IMG/VR virus record: IMGVR_UViG_3300035698_013242
Location: 1-25,965 of that record
Reading direction: 5' to 3' (one strand)
DNA: 25,965 bases
DNA from: a virus
Both the position numbers and the translations under genes were made by a program. A model generated the notes under the pieces. It saw nothing but the letters and a program-made list of their open reading frames with translations, was not told where the DNA came from and ran no database searches. This document shows positions 34 to 25,965 of the stretch, piece by piece (position 1 is the first letter of the stretch; every line of letters starts with the position of its first letter).

Positions 34-1086
34 ATGAGTGATCTAAGAAAAGCTTTAGTTAAGTTAGCGAATGCGAAGCCTGAGACTAGGAAGCATTTGG
101 AACCCTTACTAAGAGGGGCAGCCAGTGGCCCTAAATATGAAATCACAGATGAGAAGAAAGGTAACCTTTTTCGTGTCAGGGCGTTAAAAAACTTCGGAAA
201 TGTACGCGCTGGTGAGTTAAGTGGTTGGGTTGAAAGTGAAAACAACCTAAGTCAAAAAGGTAGTTGTTGGGTTTTCAAAAAGGCTATGGCCATCGGTTCT
301 GCTAGGGTCAGCGGTAATGCACAGGTCTATGATAAGGCAGAGGTCGGTGGTTATGCCAAGGTTTCCGACAATGCAGAGGTCTACGGCAAGGCCAAGATCG
401 GCGGTGGTGCTAAGGTCAGCGGCACTGCTCATGTCTATGGTGACGCTAAAGTCTACGGCAAGGCTGATGTTTACGGTGGTGCTTATGTACAGGACAGGGC
501 ACTCATTTATGATAATGCTAAGGTCGGTGGGAGGGCCAAGGTCTTCGGCAAGGCCAAGATTGGTGGCAATGCCGAAGTCTATGGTAATGCTAAGGTCTAC
601 GAAAACGCTGCGGTCTTCGATGATTGTGCGGTCTTTGATAAGGCAGAGGTCTACGGTAATGCTGGGGTCGGCGGTAATGCACAGGTATATGACAAGGCCA
701 AGGCTTACGGTGGTGCTAAGGTCTATGGCAATGCTATCGTCTACGGACAGGCCCAGGTCGGTGGACAGGCCAAGGTTTACGGCAAAGCCAAGGTCTTCGA
801 TAACGCTGAGGTCTTCGGCTATGCTGTAGTTTACAACAACGTTAAGGTCTACGATTATGCCCTCGTTTATGGTAAGGCTATCGTTTATGATAAGGCACAT
901 GTCTTCGGCACTGCCAAGATTTCCGACAATGCCAAGGTCTATGGTAATGCTCAGGTCTACGAAAACGCTGCGGTCTCCGACAATGCAGAGGTCTACGGCA
1001 ATGCCATAGTTTACGACAATGCTAATGTCCACGGCAATGCCATAGTCAGTGATAATGAAGTTGGCGGTAATGAAGAGCTATATTGA
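34..1086 (+). CDS. Left-handed beta-helix (hexapeptide-repeat) protein with N-terminal phage tag
   Basis: 350 residues, no known enzyme motif. Residues 1-30 form a charged helical segment (MSDLRKALVKLA, then PETRKHLEPLL) that recurs on three other products in this window. Residues 34-80 form a small domain (KYEITDEKKG, then GWVESENNLS) that in many phage and prophage proteins precedes hexapeptide arrays. Residues 84-341 are about 43 hexapeptides of the form NAKVYG/KAEVYG, enough for about 14 coils of a left-handed parallel beta-helix. The start is set by AAAGGA just upstream. The next gene is a shorter paralog with an almost identical leader. The fold is confident, the function unknown; a virion appendage or scaffold is an inference. 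Other frames are open across the array only because of the codon periodicity. Confidence 0.85.
   Translation: MSDLRKALVKLANAKPETRKHLEPLLRGAASGPKYEITDEKKGNLFRVRALKNFGNVRAGELSGWVESENNLSQKGSCWVFKKAMAIGSARVSGNAQVYDKAEVGGYAKVSDNAEVYGKAKIGGGAKVSGTAHVYGDAKVYGKADVYGGAYVQDRALIYDNAKVGGRAKVFGKAKIGGNAEVYGNAKVYENAAVFDDCAVFDKAEVYGNAGVGGNAQVYDKAKAYGGAKVYGNAIVYGQAQVGGQAKVYGKAKVFDNAEVFGYAVVYNNVKVYDYALVYGKAIVYDKAHVFGTAKISDNAKVYGNAQVYENAAVSDNAEVYGNAIVYDNANVHGNAIVSDNEVGGNEELY
283..1056 (+). repeat. 18-bp coding repeat array (about 43 hexapeptides)
   Basis: Degenerate 18-bp units such as GCC-AAG-GTC-TAC-GGC run head to tail and encode [N/K]A-x-V-[Y/G/S/F]-[G/D]. Some units are near-identical at the DNA level, which would favour slippage or unequal recombination and so length changes of the beta-helix. 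Confidence 0.85.
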
Positions 1087-4822: not shown

Positions 4823-5023
4823 GAAAAGCTTTACTCGTAGGGGAGACTCCCTCTCGTATTCAAAAGAACATGCCAGCCCCAGCTTTAGATGCGAAGCTGC
4901 CCCCCCAAAAAGCTTGAGAGTGAACCCCCGGTTCTCCGCAACCCTCTCCGCCACCCGTTAATCTCCTTATCAAAATCCTTTTATCAGTTACTACTTTGTT
5001 TTTATACTACAAGGAGATTTATA
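4823..5023. other. Gene-poor stretch with a hairpin and a promoter-like site
   Basis: No credible coding sequence on either strand. A 6-bp hairpin (CAGCTT/AAGCTG, about 4878-4898) lies beside C-runs. A sequence ending CCCTCTCCGCCA resembles a tRNA 3' end, but the rest does not fold as a tRNA. Near the right end, TTATCA (4981-4986) and TATACT (5003-5008), 16 bases apart, resemble a promoter for the gene at 5024, although the implied start point would fall inside its ribosome site. Confidence 0.35.
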
Positions 5024-5554
5024 ATGAGTGATTTACGAAACGCCCTAGTGAAGTTAGCCCGAGAGAACCCAGAGACTAGGAAGCATCTTATGCCACTTAT
5101 CCACTGTGCAGCGAAAAGAGTTGTGCGGGAAGAATATTTTAGTTTTTTTAAGTCCCTAGACCGAAAGATAACTAGGTTGGGTGGTAAGTTAGCAGAGAAT
5201 TTGGGTGCGGTCAAAATGGGGCTTAAGCATAACCCGGACTACCATTTTCGATGGGAATTTAACATTACTGCACCTCCCCCATGGGATGATGAGGATGATT
5301 TCAATAGCTTTCTTGATGTTTACCGTCAAAAGCAGTTTTTTCGAAAGTATAATGTAGATACATATGATGGTTTAGTTAAAGTTATCAAAAAGAAACGGGC
5401 AGAGGAAGAGAGGAATTTCCATAAGATAGCACGTCAAATTGAATCCTGGCTGCCTAATGAATTGAAAAACCCTCTGGATGTTAGTTTTCGGAACCACACT
5501 GCTTCACTATGGTTGGAGGCTATGCCTTTCTATGAGTGGGTGTCAAGTTATTAG
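5024..5554 (+). CDS. Tag-bearing phage protein, 176 aa
   Basis: Residues 1-30 (MSDLRNALVKLA, then NPETRKHLMPLI) are the same N-terminal segment seen on the beta-helix proteins at 34 and 1145, here joined to an unrelated body. The body is helical and basic early (SFFKSLDRKITRLGGKLAENLG), has a Pro/acidic loop (PPPWDDEDDF), a Lys-rich helix and a Trp-containing end. The ATG at 5024 is preceded by AAGGAG. An in-frame upstream ATG at 4889 is rejected because it would bury the ribosome site and put the conserved tag inside the protein. Function not recognised. Confidence 0.75.
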   Translation: MSDLRNALVKLARENPETRKHLMPLIHCAAKRVVREEYFSFFKSLDRKITRLGGKLAENLGAVKMGLKHNPDYHFRWEFNITAPPPWDDEDDFNSFLDVYRQKQFFRKYNVDTYDGLVKVIKKKRAEEERNFHKIARQIESWLPNELKNPLDVSFRNHTASLWLEAMPFYEWVSSY

Positions 5555-10991: not shown

Positions 10992-11966
10992 TTGAGATTT
11001 CTAGGTCATTGTCAAATTTGTGGGAGAAGTATCCCAAATTATCGGTCGTTGGGACAACACCTACGACATATGACGGACCCTGTGCATGAAAAACTGAAGT
11101 CCGATTGGGTTCATTGGAAAAATACTTATAGTGCAACTCTTCGTTGTAGAAAATGCGGACAATTATGGGAGATCCTGAAGAAATCCGAAAAGGATAAGAA
11201 ACGGTGTCCTCGATGTGAAGGGCTTCGTTGCTCAATGAGTAAGAGGCAATATGAGAAGATTAAGTTTGATATCCCAGAGGACAAACGCCAACTGATGGCG
11301 GAATCCAATTCAAAAGCTCAATGGGATGGGCTAATGAATCGGACTTTTCGGTGGGAACCTGAGGATGAGGTCTATGAGCAAGTGCGTCTGGGTTTGGAAA
11401 AGGGGATGCACCTAAAGGACATGATGTGCCAGTTTGGTGTTCCTTACGGTGCTTTGCGAGACATTGCTATCCATGCTTTTGGAAAAGAAGCCTTTCAACA
11501 AAAGATGCGGACACGGAAAATTGCGGTTGTACGAAAAATGGTGCAAAAAGCGCAGCATCATAGTGGGCTTGAGGATGCCTTCGTGGGCATGCTTCAAAAA
11601 GCGGGAATCCCTATAGCAGCCCGGAATGTTTGGACCACCTTAGAAGTGCTGGGGGCTTCGTCCCATCGAGAAGTAGACATCAAAATAAATCTTTCGGGAG
11701 GGCGTAAGTTAGTTTTACTTTGTGATGGGGAGGTTTTTCATGGCCCAAAGACTTTGTACGGGGATGCTGAGGCTCGTATATCAGATGATGTGGGTACAGC
11801 TAGAGCCTTTTTCTCATTAGGCTACTCCGTTTGCAGATATTCTGAGTCTGAAATTCATTCCGGATGTGCCCTGTCTCATTTACAACAAATATTTCCTGTT
11901 TTACAGGGGGGTGCGCGAGTGCTACGCCTTTGGCATCCTAAGTTAGAGGAGTTTGTGTATGGCTGA
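10992..11966 (+). CDS. Zinc-finger Vsr-like (EDxHD-type) homing endonuclease
   Basis: 324 residues. C2H2-like zinc finger at the start (CQIC, then HLRHM), a zinc ribbon at residues 52-75 (CRKC and CPRC), a helical recognition region, and a C-terminal nuclease of the Vsr/PD-(D/E)XK fold: Glu194 in SGLEDAF, Asp229 in REVDIKI, Asp245/His250 in LLCDGEVFHG and Asp266 after it. This matches the free-standing EDxHD homing endonucleases of phages such as I-Bth0305I. The start is TTG with GGGGG before it. It sits between two virion genes and overlaps the next gene by 8 bases. Its product probably cuts genomes lacking the insertion. Confidence 0.7.
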   Translation: MRFLGHCQICGRSIPNYRSLGQHLRHMTDPVHEKLKSDWVHWKNTYSATLRCRKCGQLWEILKKSEKDKKRCPRCEGLRCSMSKRQYEKIKFDIPEDKRQLMAESNSKAQWDGLMNRTFRWEPEDEVYEQVRLGLEKGMHLKDMMCQFGVPYGALRDIAIHAFGKEAFQQKMRTRKIAVVRKMVQKAQHHSGLEDAFVGMLQKAGIPIAARNVWTTLEVLGASSHREVDIKINLSGGRKLVLLCDGEVFHGPKTLYGDAEARISDDVGTARAFFSLGYSVCRYSESEIHSGCALSHLQQIFPVLQGGARVLRLWHPKLEEFVYG

Positions 11967-16955: not shown

Positions 16956-19900
16956 ATGGCTTTCCCTGAAACTGATTACGCGCCCCCCGGAGTTTATACT
17001 AAGACTTCTTTCGATAACCCCCTAAGCCGGACGCTGGAAGCGCTTAAGATTCCGGTACTTATTGGTGAAGGTAACGAGAACTTATTTCAGCAAGATTTGG
17101 AATTAGTTCGTGGTTCCTCCGCTACCGTAGACCAGAGGGTAGCTAGTGAAGATGAATCTTTACGGGCTGTTATCTCGGTTACAGCCGCAGGCCAAGTTAC
17201 TTCCGGTCCTTTTGATGGAACCCTGGATACTTTTCAGGTCGTCAATTACCCCATCGTAACTGGGGATGGTAACGGAACTACAACTTCAAACCGTACCGAT
17301 GTAGTGGTAACGGTTGATGGACAGCTAGTTCCCGCTCGTGCTGTGAATGGTACTACAGGTATCATTCAACTTACTGCGACACCCGCCAAGGACGCTATCG
17401 TACGATGCACCTATTACTTTAATAGGACGGATACGCTGGTTATGGATGATGTTTCTGACCAGGTACCGAATAGAAGTGCTACCGTCAAGGCTTTGACTGG
17501 TTTGGCCGATGTGGATGCTCCTGATAATCAGGGTGCTACATTGAACATTCATGGTGATATCCTTAATACGGCTGGCGGGATTGCTCAGGAAGCCAATAAT
17601 GTCCTCAACGTAGTTGTGGATGGGGTTAACCGTAGTATTGTATTGCCTGCCCGCAGTGCTTCTACAATGGCCCAAGTGGCAGCCTCTATTGTTGCAGCAA
17701 AAGCTGGGACATTGACGGCTACTACCTTTGTTAATAGCTTTGGTCATTCAACCCTTCAGCTTCAAGCGGATGGCAGCGTTGCCATTCTTGACGGAAGTGC
17801 GACAGGGATATTAGGACTTATTACTGGTTTGGCAGATAACCGTACAAGTACCTTCTACACATTTAACGGTCCGATTGTGGATGGTTCCGGTGGTGGTGTT
17901 GGAACTACAGACCCTTCACATCTTGTGGTTAGGGTTAATGGCGTTCAGGTAATACCTATATCTGTAGACGGTGCCTCCCGTGCTGTGACACTTGCAACGG
18001 CTCCTAAGTCGAGTGCAACGGTAACTATCCAGTATTATTGGAATACTTGGCAAGATACTTTCGATTACCTTGCTCATATCAATGTGACTAGTATCACACG
18101 CTGCGGGACAGTCCCCAGTGTTAGTGATTATGTTCAGGAAGCTGATTTTGTACTTAAAGATGACAAGATCATGTGGGGAACCGCAGTCAGTGTAGCCGCT
18201 GGTATAAATACCACGGGATATGAGCCCTTTGATTCCACTCAGGTTACTAACCTCTTGGTAGACGACAGAACATTCTTTTCCGAATGTACGCCTGTAATTC
18301 AAGCTAGTGGTGGGATTTCCTCGGATTCCCGTCTTGAGTTCCAGCTTTCTAACACACCTACCCTTGGTAATGGTCGTGATACACCATTAGGCCAGAGCCT
18401 ATACCAGACCTTGAGCAACAACCGTATGGACGTACCAGTTAATCGTCCCGATGTTGTTTGGGCATACTGGGGTTATGATGTCCAGGATGCACTCGGCAGA
18501 GGCCGTGTGGAAGTTTTGAAGGTTGAGGGTACGGTTATCACCTTAGCGGAGAAAGTTCCCGTAGACGCTACCGTATGGTCCACCTTCTATTACAACTTGC
18601 TAACGGATGCGGTCTACACACTTAACTGTGAAGTAGGCGGTCCTTCCGGTGTTGGCCAGTATACGGTTCAGAACGCTTTAGGCGCTGGGATCTTTGGTGC
18701 AACTATTATTGCGGGAAGCAAGGGTGCAGCTCTTCTAGGTGTTACCGTTGAGTTCCCCTCCGGTTCTGAATTAACACCTGATTTCCATTATGAGTCCGTA
18801 AGTGGAGAATACTTCACAGGCCCCGTGGAAGAGATTGTTACTGTCACGTTTGAAAGCCGTATTGCTTCTTTGGCTAGGTACACCCTGTCCGGAAGTGGTC
18901 CTTATTCCTTTATTCCGGGTCAGTCCGATTATCTTCGGTTAGATATTCACGGTACTGATGTGTTCACTACAACGGGACTTAATTTAGGCTCCCCTTCAGC
19001 AGTAACTACCCACGTAGGTGGCTATTTTGCTTCCCTTGTAGGTAGCGAACTGGTTTATGCTGGTGGTACTACGGGAACGGTTGGTGTCGATGTTGATATC
19101 ACGGCGGAAGAGCTGCTTACCCTTAAGGTAGACAATGTTCAAATTCCTGTGATCATCCCACCTACAGTCACAGCACTTGATATCAATTACTTCGTAGACC
19201 GGATCAATGATTGTGCTTCCGGGCATGGTGGTGCAGCAGGTGCCGCTACAGGTGCTCTTGCAATTGAATTGGCTGCTGGGTTAAGACCTCCCGCAGCATC
19301 CACTTCCGATGATTATTATGTCGGTTGGAATGTAGTTGTCGGTGACGGTGCCGCTGCCGCAACGCCTGGTCAAGTACGTACTGTGACTGCTTATGACGGC
19401 GTTTCCGGTGTGGCTACTGTAGCTGCATGGGCGGTTGGCGATCTGGCGGCTGGCGATGACTACTACATCTACAACCCCGCAACCGTAGCGGAATTCACAG
19501 GCACGGGCGTATTCGACGGCCCCTATCTTGTGGATGCTGGTCTGCATTGTGAGCTTGAACTGTTTTATCATGGAGATGGATCGGGTGTTAAGCCCATCTC
19601 TATTCTAATAGATGGCCCGGGTCCTGTGACATACTCCTCTGCTACTACTTTAGCCGCAGCGGTTACAGCAGCTATAGCGGCGGAACTGATTGCAACGCCT
19701 TCTGCTCCTCACGCTGGTCTTATAATCACTTGTGAGGCTGATGCGGATGGCCAGTTGGTCTTTTCAATGCAGCTTCCTGGTGTGGATACCGCTGGTTCCC
19801 TACAGTTCTTAGACGCTTCAGCACCAGCGGCGGACTTCGCAATCGCAGCGGGCTTGGATACGGGATCTACACCAGATGAGGCACAGGCAGCCTTGGTTCA

Positions 19901-21833
19901 GGGTCCTATAGCTCGTGCTTATGACGCTCCTGTTGCAGGAACGGCTAAGCCTTATGATAGAGTTATCCTTCGTAACCGCGTCCTACCTGGATCAAACAGT
20001 CTAGCCTCTGAGAGTATTGTCGCTAAGACTACCCTTGAGGTTATGATTGGAAATGATCTTGTAGGTTTGGCTACGGGTGATACGGGTCTTGCTGGTTATG
20101 CCGCTGTAGTACACCCCGCAACGATGGCCGGTTCTATCGGTTATTTGGGCGGACAGGATGCTGTAACGGCTGAACCCCAGGTGACTTTCTATGATGGTAC
20201 TGGTTCACAGGGTGTGAATAACGTCTTTAGTTTTGAACTGGACGGAACGCCCGTAAGCGTAGACTTTACGGCTATCGCAGCCGGAACAGCTACGAACCTT
20301 GGACCTATAACGGATGTTACTAGTGTTATGGGGCAGATTGTTGCCGCAATGGCCACAGTAGGTACTTGGGGAGTTGCAGGAGCAATCGTAGCTAATAACA
20401 TTATCCGTCAAGAAGGTGCGGGCTTCCGTATCACGGGTACGGATACTACTACACAGGCTAAGCTTGTTATTGGTAGCGGTTCCGCAACGGGACTCTTGGG
20501 CTTCGGCGCTGGATCTGCTGCACTTCGTAAAGAGGTTGAAGTAGCTGAATTGGCTTCCGCTCTGATGAGTAATCAGATAACCACATTTAATGATTGGGTT
20601 CTGGACCCCACCGCGTTTTCTGTGACCTCCTTTGCGAAGTGGGGTATTGCAACGGTGGTAGAGGATGCTACCGGAGCAGACTTCCTTTATGTACAGGACG
20701 CTCCTGTTTTGGCTGCTCAGTTAGGTACTCTGTCTAGTGTTACAGTGCTGAATCCTAGTCCGAATCTTCAGAATGCTCTTTTCTATGGAACGGGGCTTAC
20801 TTCTGAGGACGGCGACGGTGGTGTAGGTGACCCTGCACTTGATGGATACTTTGTAACCTCTTCAAGCACTACTGGTTCAGGTAGCAGGGCTACTTCGGTA
20901 CTCAATAATGGCATAGGCCAGGATGGTATCGTTGGTCAGACCTATCAGGATGAAGTTACTGGCTTGACCTTTACAATCCTGCCTAGGGGTTGGAGTACAG
21001 ATAAGGTTGGACCTTGGGTTAGTTATCCTGTAGGCGCCACATCCCTTTTCACTGTTCGTTGCAGTACTACACAGACTTGTGATGCTAACATCCCCGTGAA
21101 GGTTGTTCCTGGTGTAGAGATGAAAATCTCTAATACGGTCAATGTCAATGTGGATGATACGGCTACGGTACAGACTTTCGAGAGATCCGGTAATGAGCCC
21201 GCAATAGGGGATCTTTACTATGCCTCTTATGTCTATTCGAAGCTTGACTTTACAACGCAGTTCTTTACGAAGATGTCTGCGGCTGAAGCTGCTTTCGGTT
21301 CACCTATTCCGGACAACCCCGTTTCCTTGGGTGCCTATTTGACAATGTTGAATGGTGCCGTATTGGTTGGGGTGAAACAGGTACAGAAAGAGGAAGGTTC
21401 AGAGCAGGCTAGTCTGACTTCATATCGTGATGCGGTAGAAGAGTTGGAAGGTATCTTGCCGGGATTCGTTTCCCCTGACATCCTTATTCCTATGAGAGGG
21501 GATTCCACGGATCTTTACCAGGTCATCAGACGTTCCTGCGATAAGATGAGCAGCATTCGCTACAAAGCGGAAAGAACTGCAATTCTAGGAACTTCCGCGG
21601 GGACTAGTAAGGATGCCGTAATTACTATGGCAAAAACCTTAAGCTCTACCCGTATGAGACTTGTTTATCCTGATATGGTTCTGATTACCGTGCAGGATAA
21701 TGTAGGGAACTTGAAGGAATACTTGGCGGACGGTACCTTTGTGGCTGCTGGTCTGTGTGGTGCTGTTGTTAGTCCTAATAGGGACGTCGCAACACCTTGG
21801 ACAGGTCTTCGGTTAGTTGGGTACACAAGGTAA
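16956..21833 (+). CDS. Contractile tail sheath protein, giant form, interrupted by TAA near its 3' end
   Basis: 1625 residues before the stop. N-terminus YAPPGVYTKTSF is typical of sheath proteins. The C-terminal part has the sheath core: VSLGAYLTMLNGAVLVGVKQ, then the VSPDILIPMRG and YKAERTAILGTSA stretches, and GLRLVGYTR. Between them lie many inserted modules: residues 92-160 and 302-370 are copies of each other (PIVxG-G, V-x-V-G-x-V, Y-x-x-N), and the 195-295, 670-770, 870-970 and 1087-1205 regions look like a second module type. T4 gp18 has 659 residues, so this sheath is heavily decorated. The frame ends at TAA (21831-21833) and continues afterwards to 22250. GAGGTGACC precedes the ATG. 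Confidence 0.9.
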   Translation: MAFPETDYAPPGVYTKTSFDNPLSRTLEALKIPVLIGEGNENLFQQDLELVRGSSATVDQRVASEDESLRAVISVTAAGQVTSGPFDGTLDTFQVVNYPIVTGDGNGTTTSNRTDVVVTVDGQLVPARAVNGTTGIIQLTATPAKDAIVRCTYYFNRTDTLVMDDVSDQVPNRSATVKALTGLADVDAPDNQGATLNIHGDILNTAGGIAQEANNVLNVVVDGVNRSIVLPARSASTMAQVAASIVAAKAGTLTATTFVNSFGHSTLQLQADGSVAILDGSATGILGLITGLADNRTSTFYTFNGPIVDGSGGGVGTTDPSHLVVRVNGVQVIPISVDGASRAVTLATAPKSSATVTIQYYWNTWQDTFDYLAHINVTSITRCGTVPSVSDYVQEADFVLKDDKIMWGTAVSVAAGINTTGYEPFDSTQVTNLLVDDRTFFSECTPVIQASGGISSDSRLEFQLSNTPTLGNGRDTPLGQSLYQTLSNNRMDVPVNRPDVVWAYWGYDVQDALGRGRVEVLKVEGTVITLAEKVPVDATVWSTFYYNLLTDAVYTLNCEVGGPSGVGQYTVQNALGAGIFGATIIAGSKGAALLGVTVEFPSGSELTPDFHYESVSGEYFTGPVEEIVTVTFESRIASLARYTLSGSGPYSFIPGQSDYLRLDIHGTDVFTTTGLNLGSPSAVTTHVGGYFASLVGSELVYAGGTTGTVGVDVDITAEELLTLKVDNVQIPVIIPPTVTALDINYFVDRINDCASGHGGAAGAATGALAIELAAGLRPPAASTSDDYYVGWNVVVGDGAAAATPGQVRTVTAYDGVSGVATVAAWAVGDLAAGDDYYIYNPATVAEFTGTGVFDGPYLVDAGLHCELELFYHGDGSGVKPISILIDGPGPVTYSSATTLAAAVTAAIAAELIATPSAPHAGLIITCEADADGQLVFSMQLPGVDTAGSLQFLDASAPAADFAIAAGLDTGSTPDEAQAALVQGPIARAYDAPVAGTAKPYDRVILRNRVLPGSNSLASESIVAKTTLEVMIGNDLVGLATGDTGLAGYAAVVHPATMAGSIGYLGGQDAVTAEPQVTFYDGTGSQGVNNVFSFELDGTPVSVDFTAIAAGTATNLGPITDVTSVMGQIVAAMATVGTWGVAGAIVANNIIRQEGAGFRITGTDTTTQAKLVIGSGSATGLLGFGAGSAALRKEVEVAELASALMSNQITTFNDWVLDPTAFSVTSFAKWGIATVVEDATGADFLYVQDAPVLAAQLGTLSSVTVLNPSPNLQNALFYGTGLTSEDGDGGVGDPALDGYFVTSSSTTGSGSRATSVLNNGIGQDGIVGQTYQDEVTGLTFTILPRGWSTDKVGPWVSYPVGATSLFTVRCSTTQTCDANIPVKVVPGVEMKISNTVNVNVDDTATVQTFERSGNEPAIGDLYYASYVYSKLDFTTQFFTKMSAAEAAFGSPIPDNPVSLGAYLTMLNGAVLVGVKQVQKEEGSEQASLTSYRDAVEELEGILPGFVSPDILIPMRGDSTDLYQVIRRSCDKMSSIRYKAERTAILGTSAGTSKDAVITMAKTLSSTRMRLVYPDMVLITVQDNVGNLKEYLADGTFVAAGLCGAVVSPNRDVATPWTGLRLVGYTR

Positions 21834-21866
21834 GCTCGGACACTTGATCCGGTAGAAGCGAACCAG

Positions 21867-22250
21867 GTGGCTCAGAATGGTGTTACCGTGATGGAAGACA
21901 AACCTCCATTCATTAGGGTACGTCACGGGCTTACCACTGACATGACGGATGTCCTTACGAAGCTCCCGACAATTATTATGATTCATGATGAGGTTCAGCG
22001 CCAGTCCCGGCAGGTGTTAGATAACTTTATCGGAATCAAATTCTTGCCTGGTGTTTTAGGTCAGGTTGAAGGTCGGTTGGCTATGATGCTTAAACGCCTT
22101 GTAGCAGCGGATATCATTAAAGCCTACACAGGGGTTAAGGCTGGTGTTTCAGCCGACGATCCTACAGTGGGTGAAGTTGAAGCCTTCTACTCACCCATAC
22201 TCCCTCTCTTGTACCTGGTACTTTCCTTCCACCTCCGGTCCAACCTCTAA
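21867..22250 (+). CDS. C-terminal segment of the tail sheath, in frame after an internal TAA
   Basis: Bases 21834-22250 continue the sheath frame without any other stop: ARTLDPVEANQ directly follows the TAA, then IRVRHGLTTDMTDVLTKLP, a helical tract (RLAMMLKRLVAADIIKAYTG) and VEAFYSPILPLLYLVLSFHL. That is the expected end of a sheath protein. The nominal start (GTG 21867) and the next (ATG 21891) both lack a ribosome site. So this is probably not an independent gene: it is the sheath tail, reached by readthrough, or lost through a recent mutation or a sequence error. Confidence 0.7.
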   Translation: MAQNGVTVMEDKPPFIRVRHGLTTDMTDVLTKLPTIIMIHDEVQRQSRQVLDNFIGIKFLPGVLGQVEGRLAMMLKRLVAADIIKAYTGVKAGVSADDPTVGEVEAFYSPILPLLYLVLSFHLRSNL

Positions 22251-22368: not shown

Positions 22369-24138
22369 ATGGGTGGTTCAAGATCAAAAGCTACAGAGAA
22401 AGATTTACAGGATAGTTGGTTTACAACGGAGACCTTTAAGGCGACTGCGTCAAGATTGGGTATGAGCCCTAACACGTTACGGCAGCGTTGGAAGGAGATG
22501 TTTGGGCAAGACGCTTTTGTAGAGCGGGGTCGTAAGTTGCAGGCCCGAGCTGCTACCAGAACGTGTTTAGCTATGGCGGATACGCGGAAGTACAAGGGTG
22601 TTTCTATCCTTTGTACTGAGTGTGGTCAGCAGGTGGTTTTAAAGTCAAACCGGGTAGCACAGTTAGATGTTTCGCAATTTGTTTGTGAGCAATGTCGGTG
22701 TGATAGAGAATGTCCTGTTTGCGGTGTCTTAGTGAATGGTGTTAAGGGTCTTTCTACGCATATGAGGCATCGTAGGGAGGCCGGGGATAAAGTTCACATT
22801 ACTTATGGGTTAGAGCAAGAAGAAAAGAGATGGGCATCTTTACGGGAAGACTTGGATTATGTTCGGTGTCGTATCTGTGGGCATCGTGCTATAAGTTTGG
22901 CTAGGCATTTGAAAGCTGTCCATGGGATAACGGCGGGTCAGTATAAAGCCAAGTATTTAGGTGCTTTGATTCGTTGTACTAAGATAACAGAAAAGAGGCA
23001 GGACGCGGCTAAGGGGCGTAAGGGTGGTTTTGGTAAGGGTGATAAGAAAATGGTTTGTTGCCCTGATTGTGGGGTTGTTTTGGTGGGTTCGAAGTTCCTT
23101 GTCCCCGGGGTTCATGATCTACGTTGTTCCGGTTGTCGTAAGAAGGTTGAAGATCTAAGATGGGTTGGTAAAACGGAACCGGAAGATTATGTTACCTGTT
23201 TGGAGTGTGGGTATAGGGCTGAGAGTCTTACAAGCCATATTCAGAATACCCATCCTGGTTATAGAGAGAAGTATCCAGAAGCTTTGATGACAGCTCTTGG
23301 GTCGGCAATACGAGATAAGGAAGCACTTAGGGGTCTTGTCCGACCACCTGAATTTGGTGCAAAGATTCGGGAGGCGAAGTTATTGAATTTAACAAAGGAA
23401 GACTTTGAGCCTTATTTAGAAACGGATGGGACGGTAGATCATCATCGGATGATGGCGGCGATAGGTTGTGTGTGGGAAACTCTTCGTCAGTACTTGGTTA
23501 AATGGGGGCTGGAGCCTACCCCTAAGTATCAGAAACAGGCTGCCTTGCGTCGTCAAATACTTTTTATGCCCGACACATTGAAAAGATTTTCATTAAAGAA
23601 TGGGAAGGTTAGTGTGGCTAGAGCGGTTCGGGGTCTTGGGTGTTGTAATATTACGGTTAAAAAAGAATGTCGTCGGTTAGGTTTGTCTTGGGCACATGGG
23701 AATATCTCTCAAACGTATTGTCTTTCCGCAGTTAGCCAAGTGTTGGGTGGTCTTCTGTTTAAAGAGGAGTGGTCTTCGTTTTCTTATACTAACCCTGAGA
23801 CAGGGCACAGGTTTCGTTTTGACGGTTACTTTCCGGATATAAACCTCATTGTGGAATTCATGGGGCATCAGCATTACACGTTTCCAAATGCTTTTATGGG
23901 GTCAGAGTCCCATCGACCTAAGTATGATGCTATGCAGGAGCGGGATAGGATTAAACGCGAAATGATTAAAAGGACTCCAGGGTTTTATTATTTGGAGGTT
24001 CGTGAAGACGAGCCTTATAAGGATGCGGGGTATTTGCGTGGGCGTTTGACGGAACTTGGTGTTCTAACAGTTCGGGGTGGGGGTATTTATCTTGGTGACC
24101 AAAAGGTTTGGGATAGTGTGGATGCATCGAAGGGGTAG
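22369..24138 (+). CDS. Multi-zinc-finger PD-(D/E)XK homing-type endonuclease
   Basis: 589 residues. An N-terminal helix-turn-helix-like part (TASRLGMSPNTLRQRW) is followed by a series of zinc sites: C82/C85 with C106/C109, C115/C118 with H131/H134, C167/C170 with H180/H185 (MucR-like, CRICGHRAISLARHLKAVHG), C231/C234 with C253/C256, and C277/C280 with H290/H295. The C-terminal nuclease core RFDGYFPD...LIVEFMGHQHY (residues 483-503) and a following basic helix fit the Vsr-like PD-(D/E)XK group used by phage homing endonucleases. GGGGAGG precedes the ATG. It sits directly behind the interrupted sheath gene. The target is probably nearby uninserted sheath sequence (inference). Confidence 0.75.
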   Translation: MGGSRSKATEKDLQDSWFTTETFKATASRLGMSPNTLRQRWKEMFGQDAFVERGRKLQARAATRTCLAMADTRKYKGVSILCTECGQQVVLKSNRVAQLDVSQFVCEQCRCDRECPVCGVLVNGVKGLSTHMRHRREAGDKVHITYGLEQEEKRWASLREDLDYVRCRICGHRAISLARHLKAVHGITAGQYKAKYLGALIRCTKITEKRQDAAKGRKGGFGKGDKKMVCCPDCGVVLVGSKFLVPGVHDLRCSGCRKKVEDLRWVGKTEPEDYVTCLECGYRAESLTSHIQNTHPGYREKYPEALMTALGSAIRDKEALRGLVRPPEFGAKIREAKLLNLTKEDFEPYLETDGTVDHHRMMAAIGCVWETLRQYLVKWGLEPTPKYQKQAALRRQILFMPDTLKRFSLKNGKVSVARAVRGLGCCNITVKKECRRLGLSWAHGNISQTYCLSAVSQVLGGLLFKEEWSSFSYTNPETGHRFRFDGYFPDINLIVEFMGHQHYTFPNAFMGSESHRPKYDAMQERDRIKREMIKRTPGFYYLEVREDEPYKDAGYLRGRLTELGVLTVRGGGIYLGDQKVWDSVDASKG

Positions 24139-24436: not shown

Positions 24437-24841
24437 ATGAATAGCTATACCTTGGAGCAACTAGAGAAAGAGACCGGGGTAACTCGAAGACAAATCCGTT
24501 ATTATATTTCGGAGAAGCTTCTTCCGGGACCTGTTTCCCAGGGCCGGAATGCCAGCTATACAGAAGTACATCTAAAAGGATTACGGGATATTAAACGGCT
24601 AAGGGATGCTGATCAGTCCATAGCCGCTATTCGTAATCAGATGGCTCTTGTATCCAGGTGCAGAGTAATCCCATTGACTAAAGTGGTGCGAGAGGAATTC
24701 GAAATCGCGGTGGATGTTCGAGTGTCCGTAAGAGTAGGAGTATCTGTAAAGAGAAAACGCCGCATCCTGGAGGCTTTGGATGATTTTTCCCAAGCACTCT
24801 TAGTAATTACAAATGTAAACGAGGAGGGAAGAGATGTCTAG
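24437..24841 (+). CDS. MerR-family transcriptional regulator, 134 aa
   Basis: Residues 1-70 are a MerR-type winged helix: YTLEQLEKETGVTRRQIRYY, then EKLLPGP, the wing region SQGRNASYTEVHLKGLRDIK and IAAIRNQM. The C-terminal part is unlike metal-sensing MerR proteins: Val/Arg-rich strands (VDVRVSVRVGVSVKRKRR) and a short helix, with a single Cys, so no metal pocket is expected. It starts right after a strong promoter and overlaps the VIT/VWA gene by 8 bases, so the two are co-expressed and coupled. It probably regulates its own operon, perhaps sensing something linked to its partner. Confidence 0.8.
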   Translation: MNSYTLEQLEKETGVTRRQIRYYISEKLLPGPVSQGRNASYTEVHLKGLRDIKRLRDADQSIAAIRNQMALVSRCRVIPLTKVVREEFEIAVDVRVSVRVGVSVKRKRRILEALDDFSQALLVITNVNEEGRDV

Positions 24842-25965
24842 GTTTGAAACGGATAACTGCGGATTACGGGATGGTAGAACACAACAGCCTATCCCATTGG
24901 TAATGGACAAGCTTGAGATGACAGGGCGTATTTGCTCCGTTGGAGGGTTGTTAACCCTTGTCCATAGCTTCAAGTGTGCCGGGGATGCCCCAATGGAAGC
25001 CATCTATGTTTTCCAGCTCCCCCGAAATGGCGCCGTACGTCGATATAAGGTGAAGGGCCAGGATTTTGAAGTATCCTCTGTTTTGACCCCACGGGAGAAA
25101 GCCCGTAAGGATTATGAGGAAGGGGTAGAAGCTGGCCACCTTTCAACTTTGGCGGAAACCTCTGCTGATGGCTTAGTTACCCTTATGGTAGGTCAGATTC
25201 AACCAGAAGACATTATAACGATAGCAGTAGAGATACTGGTGGGTGTGGAACAGCGTGACGATGAGTATCGTTTCCGTTTCCCCTTTACCATTGCTCCTAG
25301 TTATCATGGTAATGCAGCCGTTACAGCAACCCCTAGGGGTGTTAAGCTGGCTCTTCCGGAGAGTGTTTTTGGGGATCTTGTTCTACCTAAGTGGGAAAAG
25401 AACACAGAGAATCTACATGAAGTTACTTTCCGCGTCCATATAGAGGGCGTAGGTTCAACAGGTTCTATTGCATCCCCCTCCCACCATGTGGCAGTTCAGT
25501 TCAATAAGGATGAATCTGCCGATGTGTGGTTGTCTAATTTGGGTTCCAAGCCGGATAGAGATTTGGTTTTGGATGTCACCAACGGAGATGTTAAGCCTGT
25601 ACTTTTTGCAGATAAGTCCTTGATTCAAGGGGACTATTCGAACATCTCAAAGGACAAGCCTCATTGGATGTTGACGTTACCGGCGGAACTTGTTCCAGCG
25701 GCAGCTAAGGATTCTAGGAAAATCTTGTTTCTACTGGATAGGTCTAGCTCAATGAGGGGTCTTCCTCTCACTCAAGCAAAGACGGCTTTAGCTGGATGCC
25801 TTTCAGCTTTATCCCCAGAAGACGCGTTTGCTCTTCTTCGCTTTGATACTGAGGTGGAATGTTTCCATGACAAGTTAGCAAAAGCTACCGATATGAACAG
25901 AGCCCGTGCCGCTCGTTGGTTGGCTGGAACGGAAGTCCAGGGTTGTACCGAATTAGATAAGGCTC
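24834..25965 (+). CDS. VIT/VWA-domain protein (partial, runs off the window)
   Basis: 377 codons present, 3' end missing. Residues of about 20-135 fit a VIT domain (vault/inter-alpha-trypsin type): IYVFQLPRNGAVRRYKV, the EKARKDYEEGVEAGHLSTL stretch and IQPEDIITIAVEI. From about residue 296 a VWA domain begins: ILFLLDRSSSM carries the MIDAS motif Asp302-x-Ser304-x-Ser306, and Thr372 in QGCTELDKA is the third MIDAS position. Metal binding is therefore intact in what is visible. The ATG lies inside the end of the MerR gene, with GAGGAGGG before it. VIT/VWA proteins usually mediate protein contacts; partner and target are unknown here. Confidence 0.8.
   Translation, partial: MSRFETDNCGLRDGRTQQPIPLVMDKLEMTGRICSVGGLLTLVHSFKCAGDAPMEAIYVFQLPRNGAVRRYKVKGQDFEVSSVLTPREKARKDYEEGVEAGHLSTLAETSADGLVTLMVGQIQPEDIITIAVEILVGVEQRDDEYRFRFPFTIAPSYHGNAAVTATPRGVKLALPESVFGDLVLPKWEKNTENLHEVTFRVHIEGVGSTGSIASPSHHVAVQFNKDESADVWLSNLGSKPDRDLVLDVTNGDVKPVLFADKSLIQGDYSNISKDKPHWMLTLPAELVPAAAKDSRKILFLLDRSSSMRGLPLTQAKTALAGCLSALSPEDAFALLRFDTEVECFHDKLAKATDMNRARAARWLAGTEVQGCTELDKA

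Follow-up and report, generated by a model that had tools for sequence, protein, structure and literature searches.

Does the TAA that interrupts the tail sheath gene of this virus serve a purpose, either as a stop that some ribosomes pass or as the border between two separately made chains, or is it a lesion in an otherwise ordinary gene? The question is raised by the window, a 25,965-base virus record that is a fragment of a genome. The features on which the argument depends are as follows.

16956 to 21833, plus strand: first 1,625 codons of the tail sheath gene, 44-68% identical along the length to huge-phage sheath genes.
21831 to 21833, plus strand: private in-frame TAA, at a position where relatives have no stop and mostly a leucine codon (71 of 82, with Thr, Val, Phe or Ile otherwise).
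21834 to 22250, plus strand: last 138 sheath codons, covering the rest of the C-terminal domain, with the true stop TAA at 22248-22250; assigned by phrog_2839, the predicted fold and identity to the relative L011.
22369 to 24138, plus strand: zinc-finger / Vsr-like homing endonuclease gene, matched to phrog_9084 (homing endonuclease) at E 2.6e-6.

The TAA was confirmed at 21831-21833 in the frame of the ATG at 16956, a start with the ribosome site GAGGTGA four bases upstream, and it closes a sheath open reading frame of 1,625 amino acids. The open frame that the sequence-only reading had described behind this stop is real, although it runs for 138 codons and not 139 before meeting the second TAA. 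Among 5,542 homology-checked codons of the window, the TAA at 21831 is the sole in-frame stop, and no such stop interrupts the alignment of any other window gene that has a homologue. The sheath-like character ascribed to the sequence past the TAA was likewise borne out: these 138 amino acids match the PHROG tail sheath family phrog_2839 (E 2.9e-13) and are 49-79% identical to close relatives, a level of identity that shows the continuation not to be a product of chance.

The whole gene resembles a gene of Tunturiibacter phage Tunturi_5 annotated as tail sheath, aligns with the 485-kb LR745208.1 at 44-45% identity across its length, and also aligns with many IMG/VR contigs, the longest of 536 kb; the closest relatives found, L011-L014, reach a sheath identity of about 68-75%. 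The window belongs to a huge-phage clade with relatives of up to 536 kb, and its sheath gene, taken unbroken, is an ordinary full-length huge-phage tail sheath of about 1,764 amino acids. When set against the huge-phage sheaths of LR745208.1, L011-L090 and Tunturi_5, most of which measure about 1,650-1,830 amino acids, it falls into the same size class and agrees with them in sequence along its length and in gene neighbourhood, whereas the in-frame stop is found in the window copy only.

By modelling the last 314 sheath residues with AlphaFold2, reading the TAA as leucine for the purpose of the fold only, a prediction was obtained whose pLDDT was 88 with an alignment of 60 sequences and 49.6 with nine. 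Comparison by VIA-align matched this model to the sheath of phage 812 (Z 28.2, 2.5 A over 277 residues), to the contractile nanotube 3j9q_A (Z 26.4) and to a model of T4 gp18 (Z 21.7), while a nine-sequence profile search against solved structures had given no match. Similarity to the sheath family and a sheath C-terminal fold, the two marks of a contractile tail sheath protein, are both present. The stop falls at model residue 176, within the C-terminal sheath domain; four helices and five strands come after it, including H182-189, E193-199, E202-207, H221-241, H248-267 and the three final strands. Given this position ahead of so much of the domain, the model suggests that a sheath chain truncated at the TAA should fail to fold or assemble.

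The residue standing at the site in relatives, which the sequence-only reading had named as a check, was examined in a comparison set of 82 relatives with 63 distinct C-terminal sequences. In all 82 the sheath frame continues unbroken past the site, with leucine in 71, threonine in four, valine in three, phenylalanine in two and isoleucine in two. Neither a stop nor a gene boundary occurs there in any of the 82, so the real boundary that had been entertained for relatives does not exist among them, and no insertion interrupts the relatives' frame at this point. The TAA lies one base from a leucine codon, and two relatives (L061 and L062) carry TTA at the site. Since sheath identity reaches only about 68-75% in the closest relative, a stop that had become fixed in one very narrow lineage would escape such a comparison; a search of viral_contigs for near-identical strains, by means of a degenerate DNA pattern spanning the site, returned none, in a set from which the window's own record may be absent.

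The condition of the sequence behind the stop was also considered. Compared with L011, residues 1500-1625 show an identity of 0.70, residues 1627-1700 one of 0.82 and residues 1700-1764 one of 0.75, with 79% for the segment past the stop. In the 32 near-invariant columns of this segment the window has one private change, as do most relatives, and its differences from L011 at codon positions 1, 2 and 3 number 28, 6 and 87. The identity profile, the single private change and the third-position bias indicate that the segment past the stop shows no decay, and the lesion is therefore either recent or not real; the sheath has diverged too far for a closer dating. A private frameshift was seen in the sheath gene of one unrelated contig (L059:2985-3000, passing from frame 2 to frame 1 near locus position 2992-2995). 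As the one other lesion seen among the 82 relatives, it demonstrates that isolated lesions do occur in such metagenome contigs.

The TAA is thus very probably a nonsense lesion, private and recent, produced by a one-base change in a sheath gene that is otherwise ordinary and full-length, a reading that follows from the sense codon in every relative, the distance of one base from leucine, the undecayed sequence past the stop and the lack of any other broken gene among the homology-checked genes of the window. Of the options left by the sequence-only reading, that of a fresh mutation or sequence error is the one that gained support, a sense codon being present at the site in all 82 relatives.

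The best of the competing explanations, and an improbable one, holds that an ochre-reading tRNA encoded elsewhere in the genome decodes the TAA as an amino acid, so that full-length sheath is made late alongside some truncated form. Stop-anticodon tRNAs in relatives made this readthrough worth testing. The large relatives hold 30-70 tRNAs, some with stop anticodons, and in this the clade is like the recoding huge phages (Lak). Using ARAGORN with scoring by Rfam, solid amber-type tRNAs with the anticodon CTA were identified in G004 (L150:6944-7034, 55 bits) and G007 (L151:8403-8478, 60.8 bits), together with an ochre-type candidate (TTA) in the distant relative LR745208 (L149:7629-7705) that is weak, with several mispairs and 29.5 bits against a cut-off of 29. 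Against readthrough, the sheath genes of these three relatives contain no in-frame TAA or TAG, and 176,632 homology-checked codons of the three genomes (43,789, 68,566 and 64,277, keeping the best frame per stretch and excluding opposite-strand shadow open reading frames) yielded neither codon in frame with good flanks; two in-frame TGA hits both came from one weak query at 33-36% identity. Within the window, TAA terminates 10 of the 26 genes, the sheath gene itself among them, and is therefore an ordinary terminator there. Moreover, the RNA past the stop folds no better than shuffled sequences (z -0.23), and a tRNA search of the 26-kb fragment found none. The stop is neither conserved in relatives nor repeated in other genes, and TAA has not ceased to act as a terminator; readthrough to two sheath forms, as once proposed, is not supported.

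Published surveys point in the same direction. TAA recoding was present in none of 10,754 jumbo phages (PMC13037316), and Lak phages all have a TAA-type tRNA, yet give no sign of TAA recoding (PMC8346664). The recoded genes of Lak phages (code 15) read TAG as glutamine, whereas the window has one TAA at a leucine site and relatives without recoding. A gene-specific version, in which the single TAA would act as a switch restricting full-length sheath to the late phase through an ochre-reading tRNA located elsewhere and with no general recoding, is a shade less probable again.

Less credible still is a sheath made in two parts, with a restart at GTG 21867 or ATG 21891 and assembly of the two chains. 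In its favour is a weak four-base Shine-Dalgarno-like GGTG, eight bases upstream of ATG 21891 and shared with GTG 21888. This is the best such match past the stop, and only three bases match at GTG 21867, the first of the internal starts, whereas matches of five to seven bases precede 16 of the 24 genuine window starts tested; the description of the internal starts as having no ribosome site proved correct. The relatives, none of which has a stop or a gene boundary here, give no precedent for separately made halves, and the break would, according to the predicted fold, split one compact domain.

That the endonuclease gene caused or accompanies the stop, as the mark of a disturbed locus, can be dismissed as scarcely plausible: its start at 22369 is indeed 118 bases past the second sheath stop, as had been claimed, but more than 20 relatives (L011-L014, L017, L028, L031, L039, L046, L051, L054-L058, L065, L068, L075, L076, L088 and L090) have a homologue directly past a sheath gene whose frame is unbroken at the site, other relatives lack one, nothing is inserted at the site in the relatives' frame, and an Rfam search of the window for an intron returned no match.

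Within this clade the endonuclease recurs as a neighbour of the sheath gene, and it shows no association with the TAA. It lies about 50-150 bases past the sheath stop (for example L011:7031-8986, L039:7016-8722 and L057:3562-4911) in more than 20 relatives but not in others, making it a repeated occupant of one site adjoining an essential sheath gene. Elsewhere in the window, a second zinc-finger protein (10992-11966) has a C-terminal part that by eye is endonuclease-like, with a homologue in the same place in G001/G002 at 61% identity. An N-terminal motif resembling MSDLRxALVKLAxxxPETRKHLxPLL is common to several different proteins, namely those at window positions 34-1086, 1145-1570 and 4889-5554 and others in G006, G004 and LR745208, and may be a shared segment for targeting or cleavage. 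Past the sheath region, genes for a MerR-type regulator and a VIT/VWA-domain protein (24437-25964) recur in many relatives. A decaying prophage was considered and rejected, given the recurrence of these genes in relatives and the unbroken state of the other window genes.

Returning to the nonsense lesion, the TAA would probably have arisen as a consensus error or minority variant of the metagenome contig, and with a distinctly smaller chance it may be a true mutation of a genome unable to build a working tail; we infer this order of the two causes, which reads alone can separate. Under either cause, the working virus would make a single unbroken sheath chain and the stop would have no function. 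Ordinary ochre mutants and consensus errors in phage genes present the same picture of a one-base change at a conserved site with no decay and no other lesion, and nothing observed distinguishes the window TAA from them. If readthrough were true after all, a stop-reading tRNA encoded by the phage would be serving one gene only, that of a major structural protein, and the case would be relevant to why such tRNAs are found in huge phages without recoding. As a lesion, the TAA has little biological weight, and the case shows that a lone in-frame stop in one metagenome contig needs comparison with relatives before a mechanism is proposed.
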